In this document: piece by piece, positions 1-38,461 of the stretch
Layout: each line of letters starts with the position of its first letter
Numbering within the stretch: the first letter of the stretch is position 1
Origin: a virus
DNA: 38,461 nt
Virus record (IMG/VR): IMGVR_UViG_3300035688_000024
Location: 1 to 38,461 of that record
Reading direction: 5' to 3' (one strand)
Made by a program: the position numbers and the translations under genes
Notes under the pieces: generated by a model
Told to the model about the DNA's origin: nothing
Database searches by the model: none
Seen by the model: only the letters and a program-made list of their open reading frames with translations

Positions 1-158
1 ATCTAAAATATGAAGATGCTCGGCGTTCTTGACTCCGATCAACCTTTGCTCTTTGTAATGGACTGCCGAATTGAAGCCCACTAAATCGTAGAGGTAGAGC
101 AGTCCAATCTCAGGGTCCTTGTAGAAGTCCTCTACTGTGCCTTGCCAATCATTCCACT
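1..158. repeat. Terminal overlap, left copy (circular contig)
   Basis: Bases 1-158 match 38304-38461 in the same orientation with one mismatch, G at 127 versus A at 38430. Joining the copies gives a unit of about 38,303 bp and restores one continuous minus-strand gene. The mismatch is silent (GAC/GAT, Asp). This reads as assembly overlap of a circular or permuted genome from a mixed population rather than a true phage terminal repeat. Confidence 0.95.
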
Positions 159-897
159 TATCAGCCAGTTGCTTGATTGCGAAGCCTTCCGATACAAGGT
201 CTTCTACTCCCTTCCCTAGATACTCAGCGAGGTCTTTTTTAATTTCCTGTTTCTCTGGCTTAACGGTCATGTTCTCAATAGCTTCTCGCGTTGTGTAAAT
301 CCGTTCTTTCAGATGCGCAAGCTGAATACCGGTGTGGGCATAAACTTTGGCCCCGGCCTGTCTGACCTTGTTGCAGAAGTCCCAGTCCTCTGAAATGAAG
401 ATGTCTTCAAACCTACCATCCTCAAAAACTGGGTAACATTCAGACCAGTTTCCCTTATTAAGCACTGGCATATCCTTGGTAATCTTCTCAAGGATATTAC
501 GACTAATCCCAATAAACCCCGTTGAGACAAATTGGACTTCCTCAAGATTGCCTGAAATATGGAATTGCCCGTTCCACCCTCTTTGAGCTAAGAAACTACC
601 CCCTCTTACCGGGTAGAGGCCCCCTACTACATCCTGACCGCCGCTTAGGGCATCCAGTAGCTTCTCAATGTCCTCAGGGGTGAATATAATGTCCCCATCA
701 AGGAATATCAGATAGGGTGCGCGGTTCTTTTGTAAGAACTGGTAGGCTGCTATGCTTCGACTTCGGCTTATAAGGGCGTCCCCTGTCTGGAACCACCATT
801 CAAACCTGTGATTTGTGTTGTGTAACTTCTCTACGCAGGTGATTGTCTCTACTGTAACCTGCCCGTAAGAGCAGGTATAGAGAACGAAATCTAGCAT
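1..897 (-). CDS. Glycosyltransferase-methyltransferase fusion, N-terminal part (runs off the left edge)
   Basis: The frame opens at ATG 897, with an AAGGAGGT ribosome site 5 bases upstream, and stays open to base 1. It continues at the right end of the window to 37908, giving a 430-residue protein on the circular molecule. Residues 1 to about 215 look like a family-2 GT-A glycosyltransferase: FLDGDI with the metal-binding DxD (residues 67-69), VGGLYP (about 91) and ISEDWDF (168-174) as the likely catalytic acid region. Residues 215-275 are a linker. The methyltransferase half starts near 290. The gene lies 37 bases after a decoration-like gene, so modification of a virion protein or surface sugar is a reasonable guess. 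The sugar and acceptor are unknown. Confidence 0.88.
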   Translation of the reverse strand, partial: MLDFVLYTCSYGQVTVETITCVEKLHNTNHRFEWWFQTGDALISRSRSIAAYQFLQKNRAPYLIFLDGDIIFTPEDIEKLLDALSGGQDVVGGLYPVRGGSFLAQRGWNGQFHISGNLEEVQFVSTGFIGISRNILEKITKDMPVLNKGNWSECYPVFEDGRFEDIFISEDWDFCNKVRQAGAKVYAHTGIQLAHLKERIYTTREAIENMTVKPEKQEIKKDLAEYLGKGVEDLVSEGFAIKQLADKWNDWQGTVEDFYKDPEIGLLYLYDLVGFNSAVHYKEQRLIGVKNAEHLHILD

Positions 898-911
898 AGC
901 AACCTCCTTGT

Positions 912-950
912 TACGGAATTATGTAGCTCACTGGCTACGGAATTATGTAG
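912..950. repeat. Direct duplication at a gene end
   Basis: The 15-mer tacggaattatgtag occurs at 912-926 and 936-950, period 24. The second copy covers the last codons and stop of the decoration-like gene; the first lies in the gap just upstream of the next gene's ribosome site. It looks like a small tandem duplication of the gene's 3' end. Confidence 0.9.
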
Positions 951-1363
951 TCCACATAGACATCCGCCACTAAACTGTCCGCGTTAGCGATGACACTTGC
1001 GCCAATTAGAATCCACGAATCAGTTGCATTATGGTTAGCGTTCGGAGCTGCCACTTTGCAACTGTAGTTCACGGCAGCAACGGGTCCAATCGCAACACCA
1101 ATGTTCAAGGCATTGCACCCAAGGAAATCCTTGCTGGCGTTAAGGCTATTATCAGTGGCATTATCTCCCAAACCAACCGCAAGAGTGCAGGCTGCCTCCG
1201 CCGCAGTTGTGATGTCTGCTACTATCCTATCAATGAGGATAATCGCATCTTCGGGATTCTCAACACCACCTACTAAAGCATTGGCATTAAAGTTGGTCTT
1301 GGATATTTTTATCGTGCCCTTGCGGACATAAGACGTGATTCCTGCGTCATATAAATTTGTCAT
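935..1363 (-). CDS. Putative capsid decoration or minor structural protein (142 aa)
   Basis: This is a small Ala/Asn/Val-rich protein with no recognised motif. It sits directly after the major capsid gene, 54 bases downstream, with its own AAGGAGG site. Alternating short hydrophobic segments and small residues suggest a beta-rich fold. Position after the capsid gene is typical of head decoration or stabilisation proteins, and that is the whole basis of the call. The glycosyltransferase-methyltransferase fusion follows immediately, so this protein is one candidate acceptor. Confidence 0.6.
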   Translation of the reverse strand: MTNLYDAGITSYVRKGTIKISKTNFNANALVGGVENPEDAIILIDRIVADITTAAEAACTLAVGLGDNATDNSLNASKDFLGCNALNIGVAIGPVAAVNYSCKVAAPNANHNATDSWILIGASVIANADSLVADVYVDYIIP

Positions 1364-1417: not shown

Positions 1418-2410
1418 TTAACTGGTAGCATCTATGGCTGTTGTCTGACAGATACTATGAATACGAGACACAGACGAGGTTGAACCCATTGCTAGGGCAA
1501 CATAACAGTAAGCTCGGATGCCCTCAGCGTTGTAGTCCTCCAGTTTCTCGAAGTGGTCAACCTCGAAAAAGTCTTTCCCACCGGTTGAGCCGCCAACAAC
1601 AAGACTCACGCCACCATCTTCAATAGACCCGGTCCTGATAGCGTAGATGCTCACTAGGGCTGTGGAAGCCTTGCCGCCGGTGTTGTCGGTCTCGGTAGTT
1701 AGATAATCCGACACGACAATGGGAACACCATTGATGTATGAAATCATCTTGCCGAATTCATCTGCTTGCCTGGCCATAACAATAGCCCCGGCCTTGCCCA
1801 TGGAGTAGATAAACAACTTGTCTTGAATTGTCCCGGGCATCAGGATGAAACTCGGTCTTGGCTTGCATGCCCGCATAAGTCCGAGCAGAGCTGAGATTGA
1901 TAGGCCAATAGTACCCCCACCCATGTCCCAATCTTGGTAAGTAGCCCAGGCATTATGACCACCGGTAGCAGCACAGAGCTTATCTAGCCCGTCAAACTGC
2001 TTGGGGTACGTGGTGGCGTTGCCGTAAATAAGCTGGTCTTCAATGGTTCGCAGTGCTCCTTTTATGATTTGAGCCTGAATAACCCCTCTGTAATCATTGG
2101 GGTCTTTATAGGTCTCCTGAGCACCTTTAACCAATGCCCACTGGTCGCCGTATTCCTTTAGTCCCAGAGTAACCTGGGAGTAGGTGGCTACTTCCTTCCA
2201 CCCGTATTGCTCGCCCTTTGACTTCTCAGAGATGCTAGGTTGTGTTCCCTCTCGGTTCCACTTTAGCGTGTAAGCATCAACAGTCGTGACCGGCAATCGG
2301 GGTAAAAGTTGGCCAACCTCATATACCTGTTGAACAACACCGGGCAGTAACTTGGACTGCACCAGCTTGTTCATTTCATCGGGGCTGGCAAAATATCCTG
2401 TAATTGGCAT
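1418..2410 (-). CDS. Major capsid protein (HK97-like fold, inferred)
   Basis: The 330-residue size, the place after a charged scaffold-like gene and the sequence texture fit a major capsid protein. There is an N-terminal arm, an acidic and aromatic middle, an IEDQLIYGN segment near residue 144 followed by a FDGL motif as in many HK97-fold coats, and a C-terminal half of alternating beta strands. An AGGAGGA site precedes ATG 2410. There is no N-terminal protease-type cleavage signal or fused protease domain. I identify it by position and texture, not by a unique motif. Confidence 0.82.
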   Translation of the reverse strand: MPITGYFASPDEMNKLVQSKLLPGVVQQVYEVGQLLPRLPVTTVDAYTLKWNREGTQPSISEKSKGEQYGWKEVATYSQVTLGLKEYGDQWALVKGAQETYKDPNDYRGVIQAQIIKGALRTIEDQLIYGNATTYPKQFDGLDKLCAATGGHNAWATYQDWDMGGGTIGLSISALLGLMRACKPRPSFILMPGTIQDKLFIYSMGKAGAIVMARQADEFGKMISYINGVPIVVSDYLTTETDNTGGKASTALVSIYAIRTGSIEDGGVSLVVGGSTGGKDFFEVDHFEKLEDYNAEGIRAYCYVALAMGSTSSVSRIHSICQTTAIDATS

Positions 2411-3521: not shown

Positions 3522-6500
3522 TTATCTATTGCCGATAGGTGTGTATCCTTTGGCTAGAACTAGCCAATCATCTAAGACAGGATTCGCTTTTCTGTAATCT
3601 AATCGGGGAGTCCCTGTCGGTTTTCCCATATAGGTTTTGTATAGGTTATAGACTTCCCGAGTAGGCACTTTGCTGAAGTCCTTTGGTTCTGTCCAGATGC
3701 CTAATTTATACATGGTATCGTAGAACTCTTTGTGTTCCATCAAGTACCAGTCGTCCTCATACCAGCCCGCCGAGTAATCCACGCCTTCTTTCTTCCTTAT
3801 CCCGAAGTAGTCAACATAAGTGGTAACAAGGTTTTCAGGTATGTTCTTTTGAAGCGCGTCTATAGTGTAGGACGCTACGCCGAAGCTCGTCATCTTCCCC
3901 TGAGAAAAGAGCATCGCTTCCCTGGCGTCCGCCCTTGCCGTGTCATTGGCGATATAACCAGGAGAGGCTTCGTTTCCATAATCATCATACTTGTCAAAGT
4001 CGTCTTTGTAATTGACCTCAAGTCTTAGAATGTCCTCGTTCCAGTCCTCGCCGGTATCACTTAACAGTCCGTTCTCTAAAGCCCACTGATGGACTTCCTT
4101 GTTGTCTATCAGCCAGAGTTTCATCTCGGCGCTGCTTGACCCGAACTCGTCAGCGATTTGCCCTCGCTCTACCCAGCCTTCAACCATAGTCTCAAGAGTA
4201 GGGTTGTCTTTCGTCCCCACATCTATAGCCTCAATTCGTCTCTCATCGTCTCTAAATTCAGGGTTATTAAGATATAGTTGCTGAACCGCCCTATCTCTGG
4301 CCGTCAAGCCGTCTGGCCCCTTTAAGGTGTCGTCTAGCCCTCCGTAGGCCTCAAGGAGGTCAGATAAATGCTGGTTCTTGAGTTTGAGTTCGGTTACTTC
4401 ATCCATGTCTTTCATTACTAGGGCGTTTTCTGGTATGTCCAGAGAGTGAGACAATGTAGAGACTTTATTCAACGCCTCTGTGCTGTAAACATTGGCCTTG
4501 CCCCATAAGGCTAAGAGAGCGTTCTCTTCGGGGTGAGTTCTCAGCCATTCTTCCCGGGGGTTAATGTAAAGCTCAGGGTGCCTGCCTAGAAAGTCTGCCT
4601 TTTGGTCTTCAGGAAGTGAATTGTATTGCACCAATAAGGCATATTGAGCCTGTGTCATGTTGCCAAGATAAGCGTCTGGGTAGTCTTTATCGAACTGCAC
4701 TAACTCCTCTTCATTGGTGATTTTCTGTCTTGCCAGCCATTGTGTTCTGTATTGTTCATAAGTATCGCCCTTTGTCGAATCGGCATTGATATTCGTTAAT
4801 CTCTTGTTGGGGAGTAAATCTATCTCCCTTAGAATGTCTTTGGCTTTAGCAACCGATAACACCTTTTCAGGTATGTTTTTCTTATCTGAAAGCATCTCAT
4901 AGGTTGCCCCGCCAATCATTCCGCTTATCTCGGAATAGTAATCTTTTACATCATAAACTGCGTTTTCTACTGTGTAAGGTAGATTGTCAGACCTTTGAGG
5001 TAAACCAAGTTTTAATTCGGCTGACCCCCAGTTGTCGCTATATGTTTGAACTCCTAGTCCTAGCATTGATAGAATACCGAATACTGTACCTGTTACCCAA
5101 CCTGAATCCCGTACCGCATCAATCCAGTCCTGAACACCCATTGGGGTTAATTGTTCATAAATTATCTTCTCGGCGTTCTCAGCATTTAGCTCTTCGCCTA
5201 TGAATGTTTTGCCTGACTTCAAATCCCAGAGTAACCCCGGCACTGGAGCGAGCTTTGACCTGAAGAAATTTACGCCTATATCTATTGGGTCTATCTTGTA
5301 TATTTCCCCTGTCTGAGTGGACTTCCGTTCCTCTGTAATTATTTGGGCAATGACACGCACATAAGGTTGAAACCCAGCCCAAAAGTCTATGCGTGTATTG
5401 CCGATTTTGATTTTACCGAAGTCGCTAGAGCGGGGGTCTTTTTCTCTATCCCCGCCACCTAACTCAGCTAAAACCTGTGCCAGTAAGCCCACGCCAACAA
5501 AGCTAACAAGGTTGCGAGCAATTACCTTTCTCACTGCTGGCGTTGTGGTAATAAGGTCAAGAGGGGCTTGAATACGGGACATTATGAACCTCGGAGAAAA
5601 GAAGGTAGCAGAAAGCCAGGGTGCAGCTCGACTAAACGCTCCCAAATCGCCACGCCCTGAAGCATGGTTAATAAATGAGGCTAATTTGCCATAATCAGCA
5701 ACACTTTTACCTGTTCCCTCCCATTGCCGGCAGTAATATGCCCATGTTTCCATTCTCAAGACGTTAAGGAAGGTTACATAAGCCCTCTCTGATGCACGGA
5801 CTATTGAGCCGACGATTGGCACTCTTTCAATTAAGCGCCCCATAAAGGCTTCTTCACGAGCGGTTACACTAACAACTTCACTTATAGGTGCAATATAAAG
5901 TTTGTGCTGTTCCGCCTTGTCTGCATAGACGTTATTGTGAACAATCTCATCTATTAACTTAAAGTTCTTTTCACTGAATACGACTTTAAGTTGTTCTTTG
6001 AACGCCTCGGCAAATTGGACTGGTTGCCCAATTAGCATTGCACCTTGCCTGAAGGTGGCGGATATGTCTGCTATTGTTTTCAGAGTCCTTGGTATATTGG
6101 CTATATCCTGTAATATTTTTAACGCCTTCGCCCCTGCTGGCAACTTTGACATGATAGCCTTTGTCAATTCTGGGCCAAACTCTTTTTCAAGGAGAAGTAA
6201 TTCGCCTTCCGTTGGTATGGCACCCATGACTAAATTAGTAAAAGCCTCATAAGTATTAAGTTTCTGGAATGGCTGAAGTTTATCGTCAAGGCGAATTCTG
6301 TCAATCATTCGCTCAATATCTGCATCGGTTACACCGAACTTCTGTAAGTCTAAGAGATACTCGCCCTGTGGTAAAAATCCCTTCAGAGCCCCCTTAGCCT
6401 TCTCAAATGCCTTGTATCCCTCCCCGCCCTGTAAAATACTAGCGAAGATAGCAGAACGCCTTTGTAACTCTTCGTGCTTCAATGCCTCAGTGACTTCCCT

Positions 6501-9500
6501 TGCTGGTTTGGCATCCTTGATACAGTCAATAAACTTCTTTAAGATGATTTCATCTGAGGCTGGAGTCGGGTCGGTCTTGACTCTGTTAATGACCTCTGGC
6601 GGTGGTTGAGGTAGAGGAACTTCCGCTTTAGGGAGTGTTACCTCAGGAGTAACCCACGGTAATACCCTATCTGGTGCTCTCCATATTCCGTCTTTGCCAC
6701 GCACTAAACCCTTTTCTGCTTCAATCTCCCCTGTACCACTATTAAAATCAACATCCCTAGGGTCAGCCTTTATCTCTAAGACTTCTGGACCGTATTGTTT
6801 AGCCCCCTCACTGCCAAAGGCAGCCCTAGATTTAGCATGACTAAAGAAACTCATCTCATCAAAGCGACCACTTTGCCTTATCGCATTAGCAGCAACTTCA
6901 GATGTGCCGTGGTATATTGTAATTGTGCCATCGGGATTCTGATTAAGCCGATAACCATTTGCCTTGAGTTCATCTGCAATTTCTTTGCCAGCATCATACA
7001 TTTCACCTAAATCTTTTTGGAATAGACTTTCCTTCATTGGTGTCCATTTTGACTCGGGTGTAACCTTTTTGGCAACTTCAGGTATCATTTGCCTCGCCTG
7101 TTGATAGACATTACGCATCTCGTCTAATTGCCTTGTCGTGTATTCCTTAAACAGATTCCTTACCCCAGGTTGAATTGCCCGATTACCTAATTCAGTTTCA
7201 ATGTCCTTAATCACAGAATCAAGTTCTTGAATAGTCTCCACCTCGTCAAGCTCTTGCTGCACTTCAAGTCTGGCTAATTCAAGACGTAAGTCGCCCTTTG
7301 TTACCTGTGCTGTGGGAGTCTTGGCTAGCGTCTCTAATTGTTTCTTGATCTCGGCAATCCTCTCTGTAACGGCTTTAGCATTGTACTCCCTCAACCTTAA
7401 ATAGTCGTCTATCCGAGCTTGGACAAGTCTGCCTGTCGGTTGTGGTCTAACTGGTTCTGCTGTTGCCATTCCGGGGATACCTGCCTGTAACCCCTGCTCT
7501 GGCATACCTGGCGGAGTTTCGGGAATCTCACCTTCACCCCTTTCTAGTTGCTGTCTGAGTTTGTATATTCCTTTCAATCGGCGGATAAATTCCTCTTCAG
7601 TTGTGTGGAACTGTTCGGATAATTCATCTAGTACATAGGCAGACTCAACTCTGTTAGTGGCAATACCTCCTTTCTTAATCTTCGATTGCACCCACTCTAC
7701 AGGTTTCTGCATTAGGGCAGCAGCTTCCTTGACCGTGAACGTCTCAGGCCAGTCGCCATTCTTTAGGAAATAATCTAAGTGAACCTTGCGCTTGCCAACG
7801 TGGACTGTATAGGTAGCTATCGGGTCAGTAGCAAGAAATTCCTCTATCCCAGAAGGCTGAAGTCCTGCCTCTGGCATACCAGCTTCGGTGGTGGGGATTG
7901 CTACTTCGGGTTTAATGCGTGTCCATTTACCTTCACCAAACTGTTCCCTCATTTCTCTACTTGTTATAAAGTCCGACCGACCCCTTACAAGTTCTTTTTC
8001 ACCCCTTTTAATTTCTTTGACTGTCCAATAACCCGATAGGTCAGTTCTTAAACCGCTTGGAGTTTCTCTCCCCCACCATTTGGTAAGTTTAAATGTAGAA
8101 CCAGTTTCAGGAACGAAAAAGGTATCTCCCACCTTCGGTAAGATATATTTAGGTACTGTAACCTCTGTGGTAACAGGTGTAACCTTCTTAGCAACTTCCT
8201 CCGCAATTCTCATTTCATCCAGTAACTTGTCTGCTAATTCAGCCTGGACGGGGGTTACAGGATGTTCTTCCTGATACTCCTCTCGGGCAACCTCAATCGC
8301 CTTGAACATCGCTGCTTCCCCTTCTAGAGTCATAGCGATTTCGTTAGCAGCCTGCACCTGGGCTTGCCCTTCGGTAAGCCCGGCATTTTGAAACTTCTTT
8401 ACCGCCTCGTCATATTTCTGCCCTGTCTCTGTGGATAAGTTAGAGCGGAATGTTTGGAATGAGGCAGCTCCGCCAAGGACACCAAAGGGTAAGGCTCCTA
8501 TTGTGGCCTGAATATAAGATTGGCTTACGCCCTCTAAAATAGACTGCGTTGCATCGTAATGTTTAAGAATGGCGTTATACGCTACTTGACTGATTGCCTC
8601 CTCCAGACCTTCAATGTTTGGGATAATAACTCCAGCTATAACACCTTTGACAATTCGATTTGATACCCCCTTAAAAATGGTTTTCCATATCGGTGCCATT
8701 GCTGTCTTGATTGGCTTGAACAAAAGACCTAAGAGGGGTAAATCTGAGACCATTTCAATCCCACCAGCAATAGAACCATAAAGCGTACCCCACTTTGTAG
8801 CTTCCTCAAACGGTATGCCTTGCCTCACTAATTCCTCGGTCATACTACTAGCTTCAGGCGCACCCGCAACTAACATTCCCGCGGGAATACCGACAAAGGG
8901 AGTAGCTATGGCTGATACTGCTACGATAGTCCCCATAGTGCTGAGCGTATATGCAAGACTACTGGTAAAAGAATAGGCATAGTAACCAGGGTCTTTAAAT
9001 AATGCTGGGTTATCAAATGGACTTTCTGAATACTCAGGCTTGGGTGTGAGTTCAGGATGTACTTCAATCCAGGTCTTATTTTGTTCAACAAGCCGTAAGA
9101 ACTGCTGTTCGGCACCTTCCTGAATAATTTTAATATCTTTTTCATGGAACTCTTCCAGTCCAGATGGCATTATAGGTTTTTCTACACGTAGCCAGAACTC
9201 CCTTAGATTGGTCATAACACTAGGTAAAATAGAGGTAAAGGTTTGCTTTATCCCATGAACAAAACTTACTGCACCAGCATATAGAGGGTCTAAGATATTG
9301 TCCTTTAGCCAACTTTCTGGTACATATTGTGCTGGCACAACTCCTTGAAATAGTTGGGATATCTCATCATCTGTAAAATATTGGATATTTCCCGCTGCAT
9401 CCTTAAATTCAAGTGACTTGAGGAACGCCACCATATCCTCAGTCGGCCCGAGTTCTCTTATATCCGCCAGAAATCCTTCAGGATTATTCGTCATATAATC

Positions 9501-10097
9501 CAAGACTTCCTGTATATCTTGCTCAGGAAAAACCTTGCCGAAGATTTGCTCTGTCTCAAGCTGTTCCGATTGCTGCTCTTGCAACCATCCTGCAACATCC
9601 AGTCCCCCACCGGCAGTCTGGTATTCCCCATATAGTCGCTGCCCCTCTTCCGTCAGGTTTTCTATGGTTAGAGGAGTGGTAGGTATCTCTTCAGTGGTCA
9701 GCCCCCCCATCGGCACTGAAAGAAGCGCTACTATATCAGCTTCGCTATACTTTTCACCGGTTGGCGAGATGTATTGGCCGCCCTCGGTGATTTCCCACTT
9801 TGTTGGTGTAATAAAACTCGATGTATAGCCTTCACCACCCTCGATAGGACTCATCTTCAGCATCCAACCTTCTTGAAGCGCGAGCCCCATATCCTGAGCC
9901 TCGCTCGGGGTGAAGAATAAAGGCTGTGTCGGGAAGGCAGTCGTGAGTTGCCTCTGTGAAATAGCCCCTGTTAATTGCGGGTACATCTCCCTGACTTCTT
10001 TCAGAGAACTGCCATATTGCTCCAATAGGCGCCCTATCTCCGTATCCTTGGCTTGAGCATATTGCCTTAACAGGTTCTCTTCGTCTATATCAATCAT
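3522..10097 (-). CDS. Giant polyvalent protein (2191 aa) with ADP-ribosyltransferase-like segment
   Basis: This is the largest gene, immediately after the portal. About 1-250 is acidic and low in recognised motifs. About 370-540 has several hydrophobic, Gly-rich stretches that could insert in a membrane. About 650-735 is a small beta domain, and 760-850 resembles a helix-turn-helix module. About 900-1010 is coiled coil. About 1035-1130 resembles an ADP-ribosyltransferase (IYHGTS, FFSHAKS, YGPEVLEIKADPRDVDF, GEIEAE, an H-Y-E-like pattern). About 1340-1680 matches the texture of the helical, partly hydrophobic 'large polyvalent protein associated' regions. The rest is helical. Such proteins are thought to be packaged and ejected with the DNA. 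An ejection or early host-takeover role is inference. It is not a typical tape measure because long heptad repeats are absent. Confidence 0.72.
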   Translation of the reverse strand: MIDIDEENLLRQYAQAKDTEIGRLLEQYGSSLKEVREMYPQLTGAISQRQLTTAFPTQPLFFTPSEAQDMGLALQEGWMLKMSPIEGGEGYTSSFITPTKWEITEGGQYISPTGEKYSEADIVALLSVPMGGLTTEEIPTTPLTIENLTEEGQRLYGEYQTAGGGLDVAGWLQEQQSEQLETEQIFGKVFPEQDIQEVLDYMTNNPEGFLADIRELGPTEDMVAFLKSLEFKDAAGNIQYFTDDEISQLFQGVVPAQYVPESWLKDNILDPLYAGAVSFVHGIKQTFTSILPSVMTNLREFWLRVEKPIMPSGLEEFHEKDIKIIQEGAEQQFLRLVEQNKTWIEVHPELTPKPEYSESPFDNPALFKDPGYYAYSFTSSLAYTLSTMGTIVAVSAIATPFVGIPAGMLVAGAPEASSMTEELVRQGIPFEEATKWGTLYGSIAGGIEMVSDLPLLGLLFKPIKTAMAPIWKTIFKGVSNRIVKGVIAGVIIPNIEGLEEAISQVAYNAILKHYDATQSILEGVSQSYIQATIGALPFGVLGGAASFQTFRSNLSTETGQKYDEAVKKFQNAGLTEGQAQVQAANEIAMTLEGEAAMFKAIEVAREEYQEEHPVTPVQAELADKLLDEMRIAEEVAKKVTPVTTEVTVPKYILPKVGDTFFVPETGSTFKLTKWWGRETPSGLRTDLSGYWTVKEIKRGEKELVRGRSDFITSREMREQFGEGKWTRIKPEVAIPTTEAGMPEAGLQPSGIEEFLATDPIATYTVHVGKRKVHLDYFLKNGDWPETFTVKEAAALMQKPVEWVQSKIKKGGIATNRVESAYVLDELSEQFHTTEEEFIRRLKGIYKLRQQLERGEGEIPETPPGMPEQGLQAGIPGMATAEPVRPQPTGRLVQARIDDYLRLREYNAKAVTERIAEIKKQLETLAKTPTAQVTKGDLRLELARLEVQQELDEVETIQELDSVIKDIETELGNRAIQPGVRNLFKEYTTRQLDEMRNVYQQARQMIPEVAKKVTPESKWTPMKESLFQKDLGEMYDAGKEIADELKANGYRLNQNPDGTITIYHGTSEVAANAIRQSGRFDEMSFFSHAKSRAAFGSEGAKQYGPEVLEIKADPRDVDFNSGTGEIEAEKGLVRGKDGIWRAPDRVLPWVTPEVTLPKAEVPLPQPPPEVINRVKTDPTPASDEIILKKFIDCIKDAKPAREVTEALKHEELQRRSAIFASILQGGEGYKAFEKAKGALKGFLPQGEYLLDLQKFGVTDADIERMIDRIRLDDKLQPFQKLNTYEAFTNLVMGAIPTEGELLLLEKEFGPELTKAIMSKLPAGAKALKILQDIANIPRTLKTIADISATFRQGAMLIGQPVQFAEAFKEQLKVVFSEKNFKLIDEIVHNNVYADKAEQHKLYIAPISEVVSVTAREEAFMGRLIERVPIVGSIVRASERAYVTFLNVLRMETWAYYCRQWEGTGKSVADYGKLASFINHASGRGDLGAFSRAAPWLSATFFSPRFIMSRIQAPLDLITTTPAVRKVIARNLVSFVGVGLLAQVLAELGGGDREKDPRSSDFGKIKIGNTRIDFWAGFQPYVRVIAQIITEERKSTQTGEIYKIDPIDIGVNFFRSKLAPVPGLLWDLKSGKTFIGEELNAENAEKIIYEQLTPMGVQDWIDAVRDSGWVTGTVFGILSMLGLGVQTYSDNWGSAELKLGLPQRSDNLPYTVENAVYDVKDYYSEISGMIGGATYEMLSDKKNIPEKVLSVAKAKDILREIDLLPNKRLTNINADSTKGDTYEQYRTQWLARQKITNEEELVQFDKDYPDAYLGNMTQAQYALLVQYNSLPEDQKADFLGRHPELYINPREEWLRTHPEENALLALWGKANVYSTEALNKVSTLSHSLDIPENALVMKDMDEVTELKLKNQHLSDLLEAYGGLDDTLKGPDGLTARDRAVQQLYLNNPEFRDDERRIEAIDVGTKDNPTLETMVEGWVERGQIADEFGSSSAEMKLWLIDNKEVHQWALENGLLSDTGEDWNEDILRLEVNYKDDFDKYDDYGNEASPGYIANDTARADAREAMLFSQGKMTSFGVASYTIDALQKNIPENLVTTYVDYFGIRKKEGVDYSAGWYEDDWYLMEHKEFYDTMYKLGIWTEPKDFSKVPTREVYNLYKTYMGKPTGTPRLDYRKANPVLDDWLVLAKGYTPIGNR

Positions 10098-19766: not shown

Positions 19767-20678
19767 TCATAACTTCTTTTGATGTACTAATTGATTATAT
19801 TTACTAAATCGGGCATTGCATCCTGTAACGCAGTGTGGGTCTTTCCCAGGATTGCCCGGAGGTGAAACATGGTCTCGGAATAAATGAGAGCAATAAAACT
19901 CTCTGCCATATTCGTCATAAAGACGCTCGGTCATAGAAAGGTAACATGGGATTTCTATGTTTTCAGGAAAGTAATTACCATTCATATGGTGAGTTGTGTC
20001 GAATATGTATTTTGAAACAGAATCAAGTTTTTCAGATGCCTTAAATAAGATAGCCACATCATCTTTTGTTAAAGCCATATCGCCATCACCCTTAAAGAAA
20101 GAGGCAGACACAGAATAGAGATTGGGGAAATTGTCTTGGCAAAATTCTATGAACCGTTCAAACCTTGAGGCGTTTTGATGTGTGGCCGTATAAGATACGG
20201 AAACGTGTGCCACATGATAAATTGCCTCTTTGATATTGGCTATAACTTTCTCGAAATAATCGCCACCAACAAGTTGATTCCATCGTTCAGCGTCATAATC
20301 ATCGAGAGAGGTTTTAATTCTAAAGAGGGATTTCATTGCCTTACGATTCGGGAGCCTTAATAAATTGGTATTTAGGGCCATCTTGGTAATATTTCGCTGT
20401 AAATATATCTCCTCATCTAGCCAGGGAACACAAGTTGGTTCTCCCCCTGTTATATGAATAATCCCTTTCTTTCCTGCCCTTTCGCATAGATTAGAAAAGA
20501 GCTTCCTATCCATTATTTTGCTCCCCTTAATCTCATGACAATAGATACAACTCATATTGCAACGATTGGTCAAATGAATGGCAAAGCGTACTATTTCAGG
20601 AGTTCTCTTTTCCCTTAATGCACTAATAGTTTCATCTGCCCGTTCTTGAATCCTATCCCAAAATATATTGTCATTCAT
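19767..20678 (-). CDS. Radical SAM enzyme (about 303 aa)
   Basis: The cluster motif CNMSCIYCH (CX3CX2C, about residue 39) binds a [4Fe-4S] centre, and ITGGEPT (about 75) is the SAM-contact GGEP motif. The C-terminal third adds cysteines (IPCYLSM, FYCSHL, CVTGC), resembling an auxiliary SPASM/twitch-type cluster. The substrate cannot be told. A second radical-SAM-type gene lies 37 bases upstream in the same operon. ATG 20678 is chosen; GTG 20690 is also possible. Confidence 0.85.
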   Translation of the reverse strand: MNDNIFWDRIQERADETISALREKRTPEIVRFAIHLTNRCNMSCIYCHEIKGSKIMDRKLFSNLCERAGKKGIIHITGGEPTCVPWLDEEIYLQRNITKMALNTNLLRLPNRKAMKSLFRIKTSLDDYDAERWNQLVGGDYFEKVIANIKEAIYHVAHVSVSYTATHQNASRFERFIEFCQDNFPNLYSVSASFFKGDGDMALTKDDVAILFKASEKLDSVSKYIFDTTHHMNGNYFPENIEIPCYLSMTERLYDEYGREFYCSHLFRDHVSPPGNPGKDPHCVTGCNARFSKYNQLVHQKKL

Positions 20679-20715
20679 CTTGTTGCCCACTTATCTTGAT
20701 AATAAGTCTTCATAC

Positions 20716-21375
20716 TCATTCATACCTCAATCTTTTAAGATTGTCTTTTATCTTTACTTCTGTGAATTTTGTCAGCCTCTCAATAAGCATATTTACTTTG
20801 TCAGGTGGCGGCTCTAGTAGATTATGTCCCTTACTATCAGCACCGATGCTCACAAAAACAGGGGCAATTTGTTTTGTCCAGTCAACGAGAATATCAAGGT
20901 CGAAGTCCATTATAGGTTCAATACTAACCATTTTAGGATGAGGCAAATCTCGCATCGCCAGCATCCTCGCTTCTGACGTAGGAGCTTGGGTTACGTCGTC
21001 ATAATCTCTATTAGACTCTATGGTTGTGCCGAGAATAAAATCAGGGGGCATAAACTCAAGAAGCATCTCGAACCTTGATGGGTCTTTACTTTGAAACAGA
21101 TAGCGGTTAAGGGGATATTTATAGCAATGTTTTAGGGTAATGAGTAGCCATTCCACAAGTGCCTTATAGCACCACATATCGGTTGAACTCCCAACAAAGA
21201 TAAAATTACCCTCCCCAAGATTAGTCCCCATTTCCTTCTCCACAAAATGAAACTCAGGCTGGGGAAACACCTTCATATAGCAATAAACGCAATCGTGAGG
21301 GCATTGCCCCCGTATAGGATTCCAAGTATGAGTTACAAAGGGATACATATTGCCTTTTTGCTTATTTAATCCCAT
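20716..21375 (-). CDS. DUF5131/Gp37-Gp68-type radical SAM protein (219 aa)
   Basis: The start matches the DUF5131 layout: a HTWNPIRG segment followed by CPHDCVYCY (CX3CX2C, about residues 24-31), then GNFIFVGSSTDMW and TTIESNR and MVSIEPIMDFD strands of the barrel. These proteins are radical-SAM relatives of spore photoproduct lyase and recur in phages with unknown substrate. The partner radical SAM gene follows directly. A 14-codon frame couples the two (ATG over the stop). Confidence 0.82.
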   Translation of the reverse strand: MGLNKQKGNMYPFVTHTWNPIRGQCPHDCVYCYMKVFPQPEFHFVEKEMGTNLGEGNFIFVGSSTDMWCYKALVEWLLITLKHCYKYPLNRYLFQSKDPSRFEMLLEFMPPDFILGTTIESNRDYDDVTQAPTSEARMLAMRDLPHPKMVSIEPIMDFDLDILVDWTKQIAPVFVSIGADSKGHNLLEPPPDKVNMLIERLTKFTEVKIKDNLKRLRYE

Positions 21376-32099: not shown

Positions 32100-35000
32100 C
32101 TATTCTCCTAATATCAATGCTTTAATCTTTCTGTACTGCGATGTGGCGATCCTCACGATTCTATATTGTGAGGTAAGAATCTTGATGACTAATTGCCTTC
32201 CGGGTGCACCTCCACCTCCGCTTGCAATAATTTTAAGCCCTAGTAGAGCAGTCTTGACTCTGGACAATACTAAGATTCTCGTGGCGGTGGCTTTCAATCC
32301 AAGATACAGAGTCTTTACCCTAGTGAAACTGATAGATTTTGTGTATGAGGATTTTAAGCCCAACAATATTGTCTTAGTCCTCGCAAGGTTAATAACCCTA
32401 GTAGCAGTAGCTTCCAATCCAAGCAATGCCGAGTTAATTCTTTCAAAGTTGATGCTCTTTGAGGCAGTAACTTTTAACCCAAGATATACAGTTGCAATAA
32501 ATTCGCACCCTGCACTATATGTGGCAGTAACCTTTAACCCAAGCAAAGATACGTTGCTTCTTGCAAGAGTTATGACTCGGCTAACAATAGGCTTCAGCCC
32601 AAGCAATGCAGTCTTTGACCTCACCAGAATCCAAACTCTAGTTGCTGTCACTTTTAAGCCTAACAAGGCTGTGATTGACCTAGTAAATGTTCGTATCTTT
32701 GATGCAGTTGCCTTTAAGCCAAGTAGAGCTTCGTCTGCTCTTGTTATGCCGATTGCCTTTGTTGATGTTGCCTTCAGACCTAATAAAGCTGAGTGTGCGC
32801 GGTTGCGAGTAATATAAAGTTGATTTGAAGCTATCAAGCCTAGTAAGGCAGTGTAGGAACGGGTATATTGCTGTACCACTATATAATTAAGCACCAATTT
32901 CGGTTTATAACCTGTGCCTTTTTCACTAGCATAACCTTCAAGGTAACTCTGATGGAAGGTGGTACTGGTTGAGGGAGCTGAATTGGCAACATCATACTGC
33001 GCGTTTCTAAGTCCCAGTTTAGCTATACCATCATCATCTACTGCTGCTTGGAGAAAGGCAATCCCAGCAGCATTAAAGAGAAAATCATTATAACCGTTTA
33101 TGTTCCAGCCATTGTAGGTAATGGCAGTGTCACAAAATGGGGTTGTCCCCCACTTCTCTAAGTTATAATCTTCTGGTACTAAGGTACCTTCTGATGTTGG
33201 GTTTGAAGAATAAACGTTTGTATTTGGCGTAATAGAGAGTTGGTCAATCTTCCCAGAACCATATATTGATAATGTAGCATGTATAATCTTGGAATATTTA
33301 GGCAATTCCGATTGAATTTCCTTTATGTCGAATAGTATGACGGTGCGGAAAAGATCATACCATGTAGTAGAGGGATTTGATGAGTAGATATAAACCCCAT
33401 ATAAATACTGGTTAAAATCATTTGCGGCGTTCCCGGCACTATCATGTATCGTTGCCCAAGATTGAGCGGGGGCATCTCGATAGACATAGCCATCGATAAC
33501 TCTCGTAGGAATTTTGACTATATGGGCATGCTCTCCCGTACCTATTAAAAACTCATTATTGTCTAAGGAACACATACCCCAGATGGTTGTTTCTCCTGAT
33601 ACGGGCACACCCCAGTTCGTCCATGTTGCTCCTTTATCTGTTGACTTGATTAGGTATCCAGTAGGATAAGTCCCACCTACACAAATACCAGTGCTAGGAC
33701 AATAATCCAGACCCCATATCTCGTATTGCCCTGAGATTGTACTAATAAGAGACCAACTATCACCGTAGTTTGTAGACCTTATTATTTTAGCTGTATAGCC
33801 AGTTGCGCCAATGTAAATACCATTTCCTAGATTCCGCAGGTGCCAGATGAACTTTACTCCACTTTGCTGCCCTATATTAGTCCAGGTAGCACCATAGTCA
33901 GTTGACTTGAGTAAATAACAATCGGCCCCATATGGAGCTTGGTCTTCAGTACCGGCCCAACACAACCCACCCCCAAAGTAAGATGGAAGGAAATATTTCT
34001 GACCACTAACCATTTGACCCAAGTCTGTCCAGGTCTCTCCATAATTGATTGACCTTGCTGCATGACAATTAGGATAAGTTCCTGCTACGAATATCCCATT
34101 ACCACAATAGCAGATACCTGAGATATTTGTTTCTCCTGCAATAAGCACTCCCTTATCTGTCCATGTCAGACCATTATCAGTGGATTTGATTATGTGACCA
34201 TGATGACCTGTCCCTGCTAGGAGTACATTATCTCCATAGCATATTTCTCGAACCTCTACTTCGCCAGTTACAGGTTGACCTTTGTCTGTCCAGGTGTCAC
34301 CATAGTCTGTAGACCTTATTACATGGCCATTATAGCTAGTGCCCCCTATGACTATACCTCCACTTATAGGACAGAGGCTATTAACATAAGTTTCACCAGA
34401 TATAGGTATACCTAAATCTGACCTGCCCTTAGGATAAACAGTAATAGACTTTTTTGTTACCTCAGAAACCGCAGCAGGTAGCAATCCTAATAATCCTGTC
34501 TTAATTCTACTTAGAGATAAAGTCCTGGACTTAGCAGGTGTCAATCCTAACAAACCTGTCTTAGTCCTGTTAAGAGATAATATCCTTGACTTGGTCGGTG
34601 ATAGTCCTAGCAATCCTGTCTTGCTCCTACTTAGAGATACTGTTCGGGATTTGATAGGGAGTAACCCTAGAAGGGCGGTATAGGAACGTGTGTATGATTG
34701 TCCTTCCTGCAAGTCAAGAAGCTCTACATAGCCAGTTGCAGTATCGCCAACTTCATCAACATCATAACCTGTTAACCCATAAATATAGCGAAAGTCCTTC
34801 TTGCTGGTATGAAGGGCTTGACTTAGGGTACTAATCAGAGTTCCACCTAGCCCATAATAATTGCCTGTGCAGATATAACAATAAAGTGTGCCATAAGTAC
34901 CTATGGCTTCATCTCTTTCTACAGTGAGGTAATAAACTGTTGAGAGGGCTGGAGGCGTGTAGGAGACCTGATAAATATTAGCACCATCTTGTTCCCTCAA

Positions 35001-35735
35001 ATATAAGTAATGAACTGGAGTATTATTTGAGTACCAATACACAGCAAGGAAACTCTCACTTGCTCCTACAAGTTGTCCAGCGTCGCCCACAGCATTAGCC
35101 AATAACCAGAAAAAGAAGGCTGCCGAGTGTAATGAAGCACTTGCTAAGATTTTCTCTAGGTGCGTAAAATTCCCATTAAAGTGACCTACCCCTTTGTCCT
35201 TATAGACATAGAATTTATCACTTCTGGTCTCGGCGGTAGTAAATGTTATGCGGTCAGCCGTCTTAGAAACAGCAGTGCCCTCTTGGGATAAGGTGTATGT
35301 GGTAAAATCCTCAGTTGGGTCAACCCCTAACACTGGTGATAATTTGTTAATGTCAATAGTTTTGAGTTCATTTAGTTCTGAAGATGTCATCAGGGTTGGT
35401 TTTACACATTCAGCGGTCTTATCACCAAAAAGGGTTTGATATATGAGCTCTTGCTCTTCGATGGAAAGTTTGCTAACTGCCTCCCATTGTTTCGGAGTAT
35501 AGTTAGCCCACCTGATATTTTCCATTAGCTGATTCTGCTCAGCAAGAAGCTGGTTTAATAGTGCCTTTGACTGCTGGGCGTAACTTCTGAATTTAGTCTC
35601 GTATTTTGCCCAATCACCTCTCGCCAAAGTAACTGTCTTATTATGCTCAAGACGCATTTGCTCAATGAGAGAATAGCAAGCAAATAGCTTGTCCTTATTA
35701 GTTTTGATTTGAGATGGGTATATTACTCCTGCCAT
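32100..35735 (-). CDS. Large repeat-bearing tail fibre (1211 aa)
   Basis: N-terminal 1-130 is helical. About 150-345 is a beta jelly-roll-like region. About 355-420 has four 20-residue repeats with core GLLGL. About 447-745 holds six Asp-box/BNR motifs (STDYGDTWTDKG, STDNGLTWTDKG, STDYGATWTNIG and others), a beta-propeller of sialidase type without the catalytic residues of a glycosidase being evident. About 748-945 is a DNRLRE-like beta domain. About 955-1171 has 11 more repeats with core ALLGLK. The tail is basic. A host surface-binding fibre is likely. Confidence 0.8.
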   Translation of the reverse strand: MAGVIYPSQIKTNKDKLFACYSLIEQMRLEHNKTVTLARGDWAKYETKFRSYAQQSKALLNQLLAEQNQLMENIRWANYTPKQWEAVSKLSIEEQELIYQTLFGDKTAECVKPTLMTSSELNELKTIDINKLSPVLGVDPTEDFTTYTLSQEGTAVSKTADRITFTTAETRSDKFYVYKDKGVGHFNGNFTHLEKILASASLHSAAFFFWLLANAVGDAGQLVGASESFLAVYWYSNNTPVHYLYLREQDGANIYQVSYTPPALSTVYYLTVERDEAIGTYGTLYCYICTGNYYGLGGTLISTLSQALHTSKKDFRYIYGLTGYDVDEVGDTATGYVELLDLQEGQSYTRSYTALLGLLPIKSRTVSLSRSKTGLLGLSPTKSRILSLNRTKTGLLGLTPAKSRTLSLSRIKTGLLGLLPAAVSEVTKKSITVYPKGRSDLGIPISGETYVNSLCPISGGIVIGGTSYNGHVIRSTDYGDTWTDKGQPVTGEVEVREICYGDNVLLAGTGHHGHIIKSTDNGLTWTDKGVLIAGETNISGICYCGNGIFVAGTYPNCHAARSINYGETWTDLGQMVSGQKYFLPSYFGGGLCWAGTEDQAPYGADCYLLKSTDYGATWTNIGQQSGVKFIWHLRNLGNGIYIGATGYTAKIIRSTNYGDSWSLISTISGQYEIWGLDYCPSTGICVGGTYPTGYLIKSTDKGATWTNWGVPVSGETTIWGMCSLDNNEFLIGTGEHAHIVKIPTRVIDGYVYRDAPAQSWATIHDSAGNAANDFNQYLYGVYIYSSNPSTTWYDLFRTVILFDIKEIQSELPKYSKIIHATLSIYGSGKIDQLSITPNTNVYSSNPTSEGTLVPEDYNLEKWGTTPFCDTAITYNGWNINGYNDFLFNAAGIAFLQAAVDDDGIAKLGLRNAQYDVANSAPSTSTTFHQSYLEGYASEKGTGYKPKLVLNYIVVQQYTRSYTALLGLIASNQLYITRNRAHSALLGLKATSTKAIGITRADEALLGLKATASKIRTFTRSITALLGLKVTATRVWILVRSKTALLGLKPIVSRVITLARSNVSLLGLKVTATYSAGCEFIATVYLGLKVTASKSINFERINSALLGLEATATRVINLARTKTILLGLKSSYTKSISFTRVKTLYLGLKATATRILVLSRVKTALLGLKIIASGGGGAPGRQLVIKILTSQYRIVRIATSQYRKIKALILGE
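32226..32862 (-). repeat. Eleven 60-bp units in the fibre gene
   Basis: The word encoding A/Y-L-L-G-L-K recurs every 60 bases for 11 units, with variable sequence between. The consensus is about TALLGLKATATR-x3-L-x-R. Units 6 and 7 are the most diverged. Confidence 0.9.
34484..34690 (-). repeat. Four 60-bp units in the fibre gene
   Basis: Units with GLLGL-x-P-x-KSR-x-LSLSR-x-KT are more alike than the 11-unit block. They sit before the propeller, so the two blocks flank the globular domains. Confidence 0.88.
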
Positions 35736-36169: not shown

Positions 36170-36520
36170 TCACCTCCTTAAAAGATTTTTAATCCTTAGT
36201 TTTATTGCCTCTCTTTTTATACTAGGTGGAGGCTCACCTGTTCTTAGATACTCAGGAATACTATCTCTCCTGTGTCTCATTGCGTAAATGATTCTTTCCT
36301 TCTGGTAGAGTTGACTCCAAAAACCATTGATATCTTCCGAGCTGAAAGCGACAAGTAACTCCCCTACATTGCCACCACACTCAGGGCATCGGCGAATGTC
36401 TGGTATTTCATCTTCCTGTTCAATCACTTCAAGGGGAATATGGCATTTCACACAATTTCCACTTCTGATTTCTGTGTAGCCTTCTGCCTCAGTTCCCGCC
36501 GTGCTGGTGCAAGTACCCAT
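36170..36520 (-). CDS. Zinc-ribbon protein in the tail region (116 aa)
   Basis: ATG 36520 overlaps the connector stop (TAATG) and follows GAGGGG; an earlier ATG at 36544 is less likely. CVKCHIP (about 22-28) and CPECGGN (about 45-51) form a zinc ribbon, followed by a helical basic tail. A zinc ribbon between connector and tail genes is unusual. Confidence 0.65.
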   Translation of the reverse strand: MGTCTSTAGTEAEGYTEIRSGNCVKCHIPLEVIEQEDEIPDIRRCPECGGNVGELLVAFSSEDINGFWSQLYQKERIIYAMRHRRDSIPEYLRTGEPPPSIKREAIKLRIKNLLRR

Positions 36521-37326
36521 TAGCCCCTCGGATAAAACTCCCAAACCTTCGGCCTGGTTATGGAATTCAGACTATTCTGATAAAGCATGAGCTGAGTCGT
36601 TGCCCAAGACTGATAGAGTCTTATGGAGTTCGGGACTATCTGAGCACGCATCTTGTTGAGCCACGCCATGGCAGCCTTAGCGACAGCGCCTTCGATTAGC
36701 ACTTTTTCAAGGTCAGGGTTCAGCGTAGAGATGCCTTCGGTTAGTTGGTGAACCTTATGGCAATACAAAAAGACTTCATCGCCGTCAGTGGGTGTCGAAT
36801 CAATGTCCAGAGTTACAATATCGCCAAAGACCTTGACATTCCTGAAATCAGGCGGGTCTTGCCTTGTTAGGTATTCTGCCTTCTCCACTTCGATTAAATC
36901 GGTTATGGAACCGATGTTGAGGTCTTTGCCACTCGTTCCACCATAATGATAGATGTAATAGGATTCCCCACTTGCCATAATATCGGTATCAAGAGTAAGG
37001 TCAGATGTGCTATTGTAGGCAGTTACCTTAGCCGTGGTTTTATCAGTGTTGTTGTAGACCGTCTTGCCAACATCCCCAGCTACGAATTGGGCGTTTGTCG
37101 TGTCAATGAGATGGTTTGCCGTTGTTGCCGTTGCTGCACCCGATTTATTGCTGGCGGTTAGCGTCTCCCTGACCTCATAAGGTCGCTTCTCGGAGATTTC
37201 CACAAGGACTTCGTTGATGTGCAAATCTATCTCATCATCAGCAAACTCAGCGTCAACACTCTCCTGAAGTTCATCTCGGAGCATCTGGCGCACTATGGTT
37301 CGGATAGTCTTAATGTTTTTAGCCAT
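36520..37326 (-). CDS. Head-tail connector/adaptor-like protein (268 aa)
   Basis: The first 60 residues (RTIVRQMLRDELQ, ADDEIDLHINEVLVEISEKRPYEV) and the last 70 (ALEGAVAKAAM-like, WLNKMRAQI, SWATTQLMLYQNSLN) form the helices seen in adaptor proteins that sit below the portal. A beta insertion (about 65-135, TTANHLIDTTNAQFVAGDVG) looks like a separate decoration domain. With no tape measure seen, this is the likely neck protein of a short tail. Confidence 0.7.
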   Translation of the reverse strand: MAKNIKTIRTIVRQMLRDELQESVDAEFADDEIDLHINEVLVEISEKRPYEVRETLTASNKSGAATATTANHLIDTTNAQFVAGDVGKTVYNNTDKTTAKVTAYNSTSDLTLDTDIMASGESYYIYHYGGTSGKDLNIGSITDLIEVEKAEYLTRQDPPDFRNVKVFGDIVTLDIDSTPTDGDEVFLYCHKVHQLTEGISTLNPDLEKVLIEGAVAKAAMAWLNKMRAQIVPNSIRLYQSWATTQLMLYQNSLNSITRPKVWEFYPRG

Positions 37327-37333
37327 AGTTCAC

Positions 37334-37495
37334 CTACTTCTTAACGGGTGCTTTGCAATAGTCCGCTAATTGCTCTTCGGACATTGTCTCAGCCATCTTT
37401 GCAGCCTGGGCACTATAAGATTTCGGTGTTTCCCCCTTCTTTATCGAGAGAGCAATGCAAAAAAGGGTTCGTTGCGATTTTGAAGTTGCTGGCAT
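37334..37495 (-). CDS. DUF3008-like small protein (53 aa)
   Basis: MPATSKSQRTLFCIALSIKKG then SEEQLADYCKAPVKK matches the layout of the short DUF3008 family, seen beside phage structural genes. An AAGGAGG site precedes ATG 37495. Role unknown. Confidence 0.72.
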   Translation of the reverse strand: MPATSKSQRTLFCIALSIKKGETPKSYSAQAAKMAETMSEEQLADYCKAPVKK

Positions 37496-37512: not shown

Positions 37513-37911
37513 TTAGATGTTAAACTTTGAACTTGAATAGGGCTTATCGTGGCCCCCTACCCCGAATATTATTTCGATGCCTAGTTCCTCACAGACTTCT
37601 TTCTCAGGCAGGTTATTTATATCCCAGGTATCGCCACCTTTAGCGAAGATGTCCGGCTTATAGAGTCGCAGGGAAGATTTGCAACAATTCTCTTTATCTA
37701 TGTTCTCTACCACCTTACCTCTTCCCTTCAGTCCCCATTCCAAGATTTGTTTTCTGGCTTCATAAGGGATGGCACACTTGCCCTTCTTTTTGATTAGTTG
37801 GTCGTCCCGAGCCAGAATAATTATTAAATCCCCAAGTTTCAGGGCTCCCTCTATGTGAGCGATATGTCCTGGGTGTAGTGGGTCAAAACTTCCAGCGGTA
37901 GCAACTATCAT
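37513..37911 (-). CDS. HldE/RfaE-like nucleotidyltransferase (132 aa)
   Basis: GSFDPLHPGHIAHI (residues 7-20) carries the HxGH nucleotide-binding motif of cytidylyltransferases. LYKPDIFAKGGDTW (about 84-97) matches the HldE/RfaE C-terminal family, and YSSSKF near the end stands for the ISST/YSTT phosphate motif. It should make a CDP- or ADP-activated sugar or polyol. Its ATG overlaps the fusion gene's stop by 4 bases, so the two are coupled. Confidence 0.87.
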   Translation of the reverse strand: MIVATAGSFDPLHPGHIAHIEGALKLGDLIIILARDDQLIKKKGKCAIPYEARKQILEWGLKGRGKVVENIDKENCCKSSLRLYKPDIFAKGGDTWDINNLPEKEVCEELGIEIIFGVGGHDKPYSSSKFNI

Positions 37912-38461
37912 TTCCCTTTAATACACCAATGGTTGTCGAAGATAACCAAGCCTGCCTCCTTCAACCAGTCATTTATGTTTTTACTGTGGTCAAAGTGCAT
38001 CGGGCTTACTTCGTGTTCCCAGAAACAATCGTAGTGATAGAACCTTGCGCCTTCCTTCATCTTCGCCCCTATCTTCAGGAGAAAGCTACGCAAGTCTTCT
38101 ATGTGTTCCAGTGTGTCTATGGCGATAATGAGGTCAAACCCCTCTATCTCTGGGAATTGACTGGTGAACTTCACATTTCTAGCACCTAGCTTATCGGCTC
38201 TGAACCTGGCGAAATCTAATGCCTTCTCGCTTATGTCATACCCGACTAGGTTCTTATTTTTCCAGCACAGTTCAAACAGGGCAGTCCCTATGCCACAGCC
38301 AACATCTAAAATATGAAGATGCTCGGCGTTCTTGACTCCGATCAACCTTTGCTCTTTGTAATGGACTGCCGAATTGAAGCCCACTAAATCGTAGAGGTAG
38401 AGCAGTCCAATCTCAGGGTCCTTGTAGAAATCCTCTACTGTGCCTTGCCAATCATTCCACT
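37908..38461 (-). CDS. Glycosyltransferase-methyltransferase fusion, C-terminal part (runs off the right edge)
   Basis: This continues the frame that starts at 897. The methyltransferase carries motif I LDVGCGIG (residues 298-305 of the whole), VGYDISEKALDFAR as the SAM-ribose region, and IIAIDTLEHIED as motif IV/post IV, a class I SAM-dependent enzyme of about 140 residues. A GTG at 38384 would allow a stand-alone enzyme, but the frame is open further upstream with no ribosome site there, so fusion is preferred. Confidence 0.88.
   Translation of the reverse strand, partial: WNDWQGTVEDFYKDPEIGLLYLYDLVGFNSAVHYKEQRLIGVKNAEHLHILDVGCGIGTALFELCWKNKNLVGYDISEKALDFARFRADKLGARNVKFTSQFPEIEGFDLIIAIDTLEHIEDLRSFLLKIGAKMKEGARFYHYDCFWEHEVSPMHFDHSKNINDWLKEAGLVIFDNHWCIKGK
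38304..38461. repeat. Terminal overlap, right copy
   Basis: This repeats 1-158 with one mismatch (38430 A, 127 G). It marks the point where the circular sequence was cut. Confidence 0.95.

Follow-up and report, generated by a model that had tools for sequence, protein, structure and literature searches.

In the literature found, the glycosylation of tailed-phage virions is shown mainly for mycobacteriophages. The primary paper on this modification in mycobacteriophages is reportedly that of Freeman et al. from 2023. The Che8 and Corndog groups offer a precedent for phage virion glycosylation (PMC12363180, PMC11600133). In cluster O mycobacteriophages, an O-methyltransferase lies beside three glycosyltransferases, and these enzymes are said to modify the capsid and tail tube (PMC11600133). 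In the chlorovirus PBCV-1, the protein A064R assembles the terminal rhamnose of the glycan on the capsid and adds an O-2 methyl group to it (PMC9614988), and A197 of STIV is an essential viral glycosyltransferase that possibly acts on the major capsid protein (PMC10551542).

We analyzed a viral DNA stretch of 38,461 nucleotides (IMG/VR record IMGVR_UViG_3300035688_000024), referred to here in its whole length as the window. A gene split by the two contig ends encodes a single fusion protein consisting of a glycosyltransferase (GT) and an S-adenosylmethionine (SAM)-dependent methyltransferase (MT). With a probability of roughly 0.58, we consider that this protein puts a sugar on a virion head protein and then O-methylates that sugar. 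The slot beside the capsid gene in which it is found is more interesting than the fusion alone. The features of the locus are the following:

1-897, minus strand: fusion residues 1-299, with the GT-A domain (about 1-210), the linker and the start of the MT domain (open reading frame, profile and structure)
1-158: left copy of a 158-bp end overlap, with one G/A mismatch to the right copy
935-1363, minus strand: 142-residue beta-rich head protein, probable cement or decoration protein and candidate acceptor (low-confidence model)
1418-2410, minus strand: major capsid protein, phrog_212 (PHROG match)
36520-37326, minus strand: conserved gene bounding the other side of the slot, connector-like by position only (gene order)
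37334-37495, minus strand: 53-residue open reading frame resembling the DUF3008-type small gene beside the fusion in relatives (homologue L001:11385-11546)
37513-37911, minus strand: CTP_transf_like nucleotidyltransferase, RfaE-II/TagD-like, best read as accessory (profile, gene order)
37908-38459, minus strand: fusion residues 248-430, the class I SAM methyltransferase and the stop codon (open reading frame, profile and structure)
38304-38461: right copy of the 158-bp end overlap

The split gene and its product

An earlier note on this DNA, made from the letters alone, had proposed that one 430-residue protein runs across the contig break, and this was confirmed. The minus-strand frame 897-1 stays open up to the contig end, and the frame 38459-37908 is likewise open at the opposite end. 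Positions 1-158 equal positions 38304-38461 save for one G/A mismatch, which is synonymous. When the contig was joined and translated over the junction, a continuous frame of 430 residues with 0 internal stops was obtained, and the protein was the same whichever overlap copy was used. The fusion is present in one piece, with no stop between the halves, in 14 IMG/VR viral contigs (L001-L014) from many metagenomes at 71-92% identity, and it is also uninterrupted in L015 at 39% identity. In addition, the gene order over the junction (capsid, cement-like, GT-MT, connector-like) matches the unbroken order in relatives. Because the fusion is unbroken in the 14 contigs and the junction has the gene order of those contigs, it is genuine and was not created by circularising the contig. 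A chimeric or misassembled junction was ruled out by the relatives that carry the fusion uninterrupted.

The record is classed as linear in IMG/VR despite its overlapping ends, a label that may stem from the single mismatch between the two copies of the repeat. Complete genomes like this record may escape screens for exact end repeats.

The GT half scored 29.6 bits against PF00535, above the Pfam cut-off of 23.3, and its DxD motif is D67-G68-D69. Its best PHROG match was phrog_1574 (1.5e-16), which is also the best PHROG match to the GT half of L036. In an AlphaFold model of the L001 orthologue (mean pLDDT 89.6), the pTM of 0.56 means that each domain is confident and their mutual placement is not. 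The nearest solved GT to residues 2-207 of this model was STIV A197 (Z 20.7, rmsd 2.5 over 174 residues). Seven residues (D67, D69, S169, E170, D171, W172, and H195) were invariant in 29/29 aligned GTs, in an alignment that reaches down to about 25-30% identity. The fusion holds one GT domain in its 430 residues, and it has no obvious membrane segment because the maximum 19-residue hydropathy is 1.37.

The MT half scored 66.3 bits against PF13847 (Methyltransf_31; cut-off 27) and contains the motif LDVGCGIG, with motif I (D-x-G-C-G-I-G) retained in nearly all MT rows of the alignment. In the L001 model, the MT domain (about 276-429) gave Z scores of 17-19 to YcgJ, UbiG, and RebM, the last of which is a sugar methylase. 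The top PDB match of the MT profile was a plant phosphoethanolamine N-methyltransferase, and the profile also matched AtmM, named as a D-glucose O-methyltransferase. A class I methyltransferase fold, as predicted here, by itself leaves the substrate unfixed. Taken together, the profile scores, motifs and predicted folds bear out what the earlier note had read from the letters, namely a GT-A domain with DxD (67-69) and, after it, a class I methyltransferase.

Among close relatives, the median dN/dS was 0.062 for the GT and 0.069 for the MT, against 0.19 for the linker. Judging from these values, both domains are subject to strong purifying selection, and the low values relative to the linker argue that both activities are needed.

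The capsid-side neighbourhood

The fusion had been placed inside a head-gene cluster, and the flanking genes agree with this both here and in relatives. The close group (L001-L014 and L020-L023) shows the order capsid (phrog_212), a beta-rich protein of 137-142 residues, GT-MT, and connector-like gene, which is kept wherever a contig includes those flanks. All of the viral loci found for the cement-like gene (16/16) were contigs bearing GT-MT. A weak model of the protein (pLDDT 53) had its best structural matches in the capsid chains of Pam1, KHP40, GP4, and KHP30 (Z 8.6-9.4), with Foldseek E-values of only 0.002-0.004. Two of these four top matches are titled as a cement protein or its capsid, and the KHP40 entry is a trimeric cement protein. 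The 142-residue protein is thus a probable capsid cement or decoration protein. In L022 (6062-6921) and L023 (7250-8109), the cement-like gene is tandemly doubled between the capsid gene and GT-MT.

More broadly, the GT, with or without the MT, sits directly after the major capsid gene or one or two small head genes downstream of it. The capsid proteins preceding it span three families, PHROG 212, 267, and 10; the phrog_267 capsid is beside the GT in L017, L024, L025, L027, L029, L030, and L067-L071, and the phrog_10 capsid in L033, L036, L037, and L044. There are exceptions: the GT lies two genes before the capsid gene in L034 and L040, and in an isolate relative, a Rhodobacteraceae phage (27% identity), it is among replication genes.

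A scan of genome contigs gave only a weak match, to the MT alone, in Winogradskyella. The terminase matched Bacteroides phages at 42%, and the capsid protein matched mostly large proteobacterial phages at 24-29%; since these matches suggest different hosts, no single host is indicated. Elsewhere in the window, a 2191-residue reading frame (3522-10097, minus strand) without a Pfam match lies between genes in the portal and scaffold positions, and it has a YHGT stretch that, by eye, recalls ADP-ribosyltransferases. In the early region (19767-21375, minus strand), the genes for a radical SAM protein and a DUF5131-like protein are neighbours, and a probable tail protein (32100-35735, minus strand) has BNR/sortilin-like repeats and many repeats of the 'ALLGLKATATR' type.

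Variation of the slot among relatives

The MT domain was gained or lost with at least 4 changes on the GT tree. A fusion in the reverse order, with the MT before the GT, occurs in L035 (9332-10666) and L036 (9185-10663), which form their own clade (100/99); it, too, follows the capsid gene, which in L036 belongs to phrog_10. Of 12 viral LicD-like loci found, 11 have the LicD-like gene (SGTLL...DHDID) directly downstream of the GT. The arrangement capsid, GT, LicD-like was seen in L010, L017, L026, L028, L030, L031, and L067-L071, and the major capsid gene precedes the GT in nearly all of them. Both partners were present in 2 cases, the MT only in 17, the LicD-like gene only in 8, and neither in 4 (Fisher p 0.002, without correction for relatedness). 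This distribution suggests that the LicD-like gene largely replaces the MT as the partner of the GT. A second GT2 was found in L024, L025, and L027; in L025 (12570-13211) and L027 (12162-14918), this GT2 and a NeuB-family synthase follow GT-MT. In L027, a gene for a B12-binding radical SAM protein lies between the second GT2 and NeuB.

These patterns led us to a tentative reading, to which we give somewhat less than even odds, that the capsid-side slot in tailed phages of three capsid families is a conserved site of glycan decoration, occupied by one GT clade with interchangeable finishing enzymes, which would be the MT fused on either side, the LicD-like enzyme, or the second GT with NeuB. 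If it is true, virion glycosylation would be widespread in environmental phages and not a speciality of mycobacteriophages.

Proposed function and alternative explanations

We propose that the fusion is a soluble two-domain enzyme, probably made late alongside the head proteins. The GT-A domain, presumably metal-dependent through its DxD motif, would move a sugar from a nucleotide sugar onto a head protein; the likeliest acceptors are the major capsid protein and the adjoining cement-like protein. The C-terminal SAM-dependent domain might then O-methylate the transferred sugar as a cap. Related phages may finish the GT product otherwise, either with a LicD-like phosphotransferase or through a second GT together with NeuB. 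The benefit could lie in a changed surface, in escape from binding or immune factors, or in stability. The sugar, the protein acceptor and the methylation of the sugar are all points that we infer for the fusion. A GT linked to the capsid gene over several capsid families, with exchangeable caps, would imply that a handful of genes is enough for many uncultivated phages to make a defined glycan on their surface.

The earlier note had gone further, suggesting a self-contained cassette that makes its own activated sugar, transfers it and methylates it on a capsid or tail component. The transfer and methylation are plausible for a capsid component, but the part on sugar activation was not supported. 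Under such a scheme, the neighbouring nucleotidyltransferase would make an ADP- or CDP-sugar as donor for the GT domain, and the MT would methylate it. The nucleotidyltransferase does adjoin the fusion, its start and the fusion stop sharing 4 bp (ATGA) with a similar overlap in L002, and it has an RfaE-II-like score together with the HxGH motif (HPGH, residues 13-16) and a KGGD motif. However, the 53.2 bits obtained against the RfaE-II equivalog TIGR02199 are far under the cut-off of 181.5, so the supposed HldE/RfaE-like enzyme is like this family and falls below its threshold. It is also not conserved: it adjoins the fusion in about 2/17 close relatives (this window and L002), being missing from the slot in about 15/17 with the same GT-MT, and the GT studied here is within 4 kb in 2/80 viral loci bearing the nucleotidyltransferase gene, the other 78 being away from it. 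No sugar kinase or other activated-sugar step was seen among the window reading frames scanned, and no epimerase near the fusion. A role as core partner was ruled out by the counts in relatives, and the gene is best read from sequence as an RfaE-II-like accessory gene. With the nucleotidyltransferase not conserved and no kinase seen, we consider the cassette quite unlikely. It is unlikely, too, that late in infection the enzyme alters a glycan on the host surface, for example to block superinfection or to keep progeny from adhering to debris, with the capsid-side place setting its timing only. Head-operon genes can act on non-head targets, LicD enzymes modify bacterial teichoic acids, a study of gut phages interpreted their LicD and GT genes in this way, and LicD, NeuB, and the second GT share the capsid-side slot. 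Nevertheless, the low hydropathy of the fusion, the lack of a flippase or Gtr-type partner in the neighbourhoods, as judged by reading the neighbours, and the linkage of the GT to capsid genes of three families instead of lysogeny genes all argue against a host target.

The MT might also act on something other than the sugar, for instance a protein side chain, or phosphoethanolamine that becomes a phosphocholine-type cap, as its top PDB match and the LicD-like and cytidylyltransferase-like genes in the same slot of relatives could suggest. This seems very doubtful to us, because LicD and the MT tend to be mutually exclusive, at least before correction for relatedness, and both the fusion to a GT and the sugar O-methyltransferases among the matches favour a sugar. 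Some phages have GTs and MTs with DNA as their substrate, and glucosylation or methylation of phage DNA might be imagined for the fusion as well. However, the fusion is located in the head module, no base-hypermodification genes were recognised among the window reading frames scanned, and the closest GT fold is that of A197, which makes a DNA target extremely improbable. Sugar transfer to a head protein followed by O-methylation is the reading that we prefer.

Comparison with known systems

No literature on this GT-MT and capsid-slot arrangement was found among open-access papers. The earlier note had called it unusual for a phage to supply its own sugar activation along with a transferase-methylase; the pairing of a GT with an MT is known from Che8 gp108 and cluster O. 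The phage family phrog_1574 spans the GT only, without a methyltransferase, and carries no assigned function. Unlike the Gtr-type serotype-converting GTs, the fusion has no hydrophobic segment, and no flippase partner was seen in the neighbours read. In structure, the GT domain comes closest to STIV A197, but A197 has no methyltransferase and belongs to an archaeal non-tailed virus. PBCV-1 A064R likewise has a GT followed by a SAM methyltransferase in one viral polypeptide; it has two GT domains, whereas the fusion has one, and a sequence relation is not apparent. Moreover, the MT of A064R modifies an N-glycan in a virus of eukaryotes, whereas the fusion is from a phage.

The sequence signature, a capsid gene and then a GT with an MT or LicD, can be applied to any isolate that carries it. 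Che8 gp108 (L062:6172-7347), which is annotated as a glycosyltransferase only, is a fusion of GT2 with TylF/Methyltransf_24 by Pfam; like the protein described here, it thus joins a GT to an MT, and virion glycosylation is known for Che8. The GT profile matched Che8 gp110 marginally (E 0.036 in a search of 3 proteins), and gp110 matches PF01755 instead. The genes gp108-gp110 are near the genome end, whereas the fusion is beside the capsid gene, and the MT of gp108 is of the TylF type, in contrast to the Methyltransf_31 type of the fusion.
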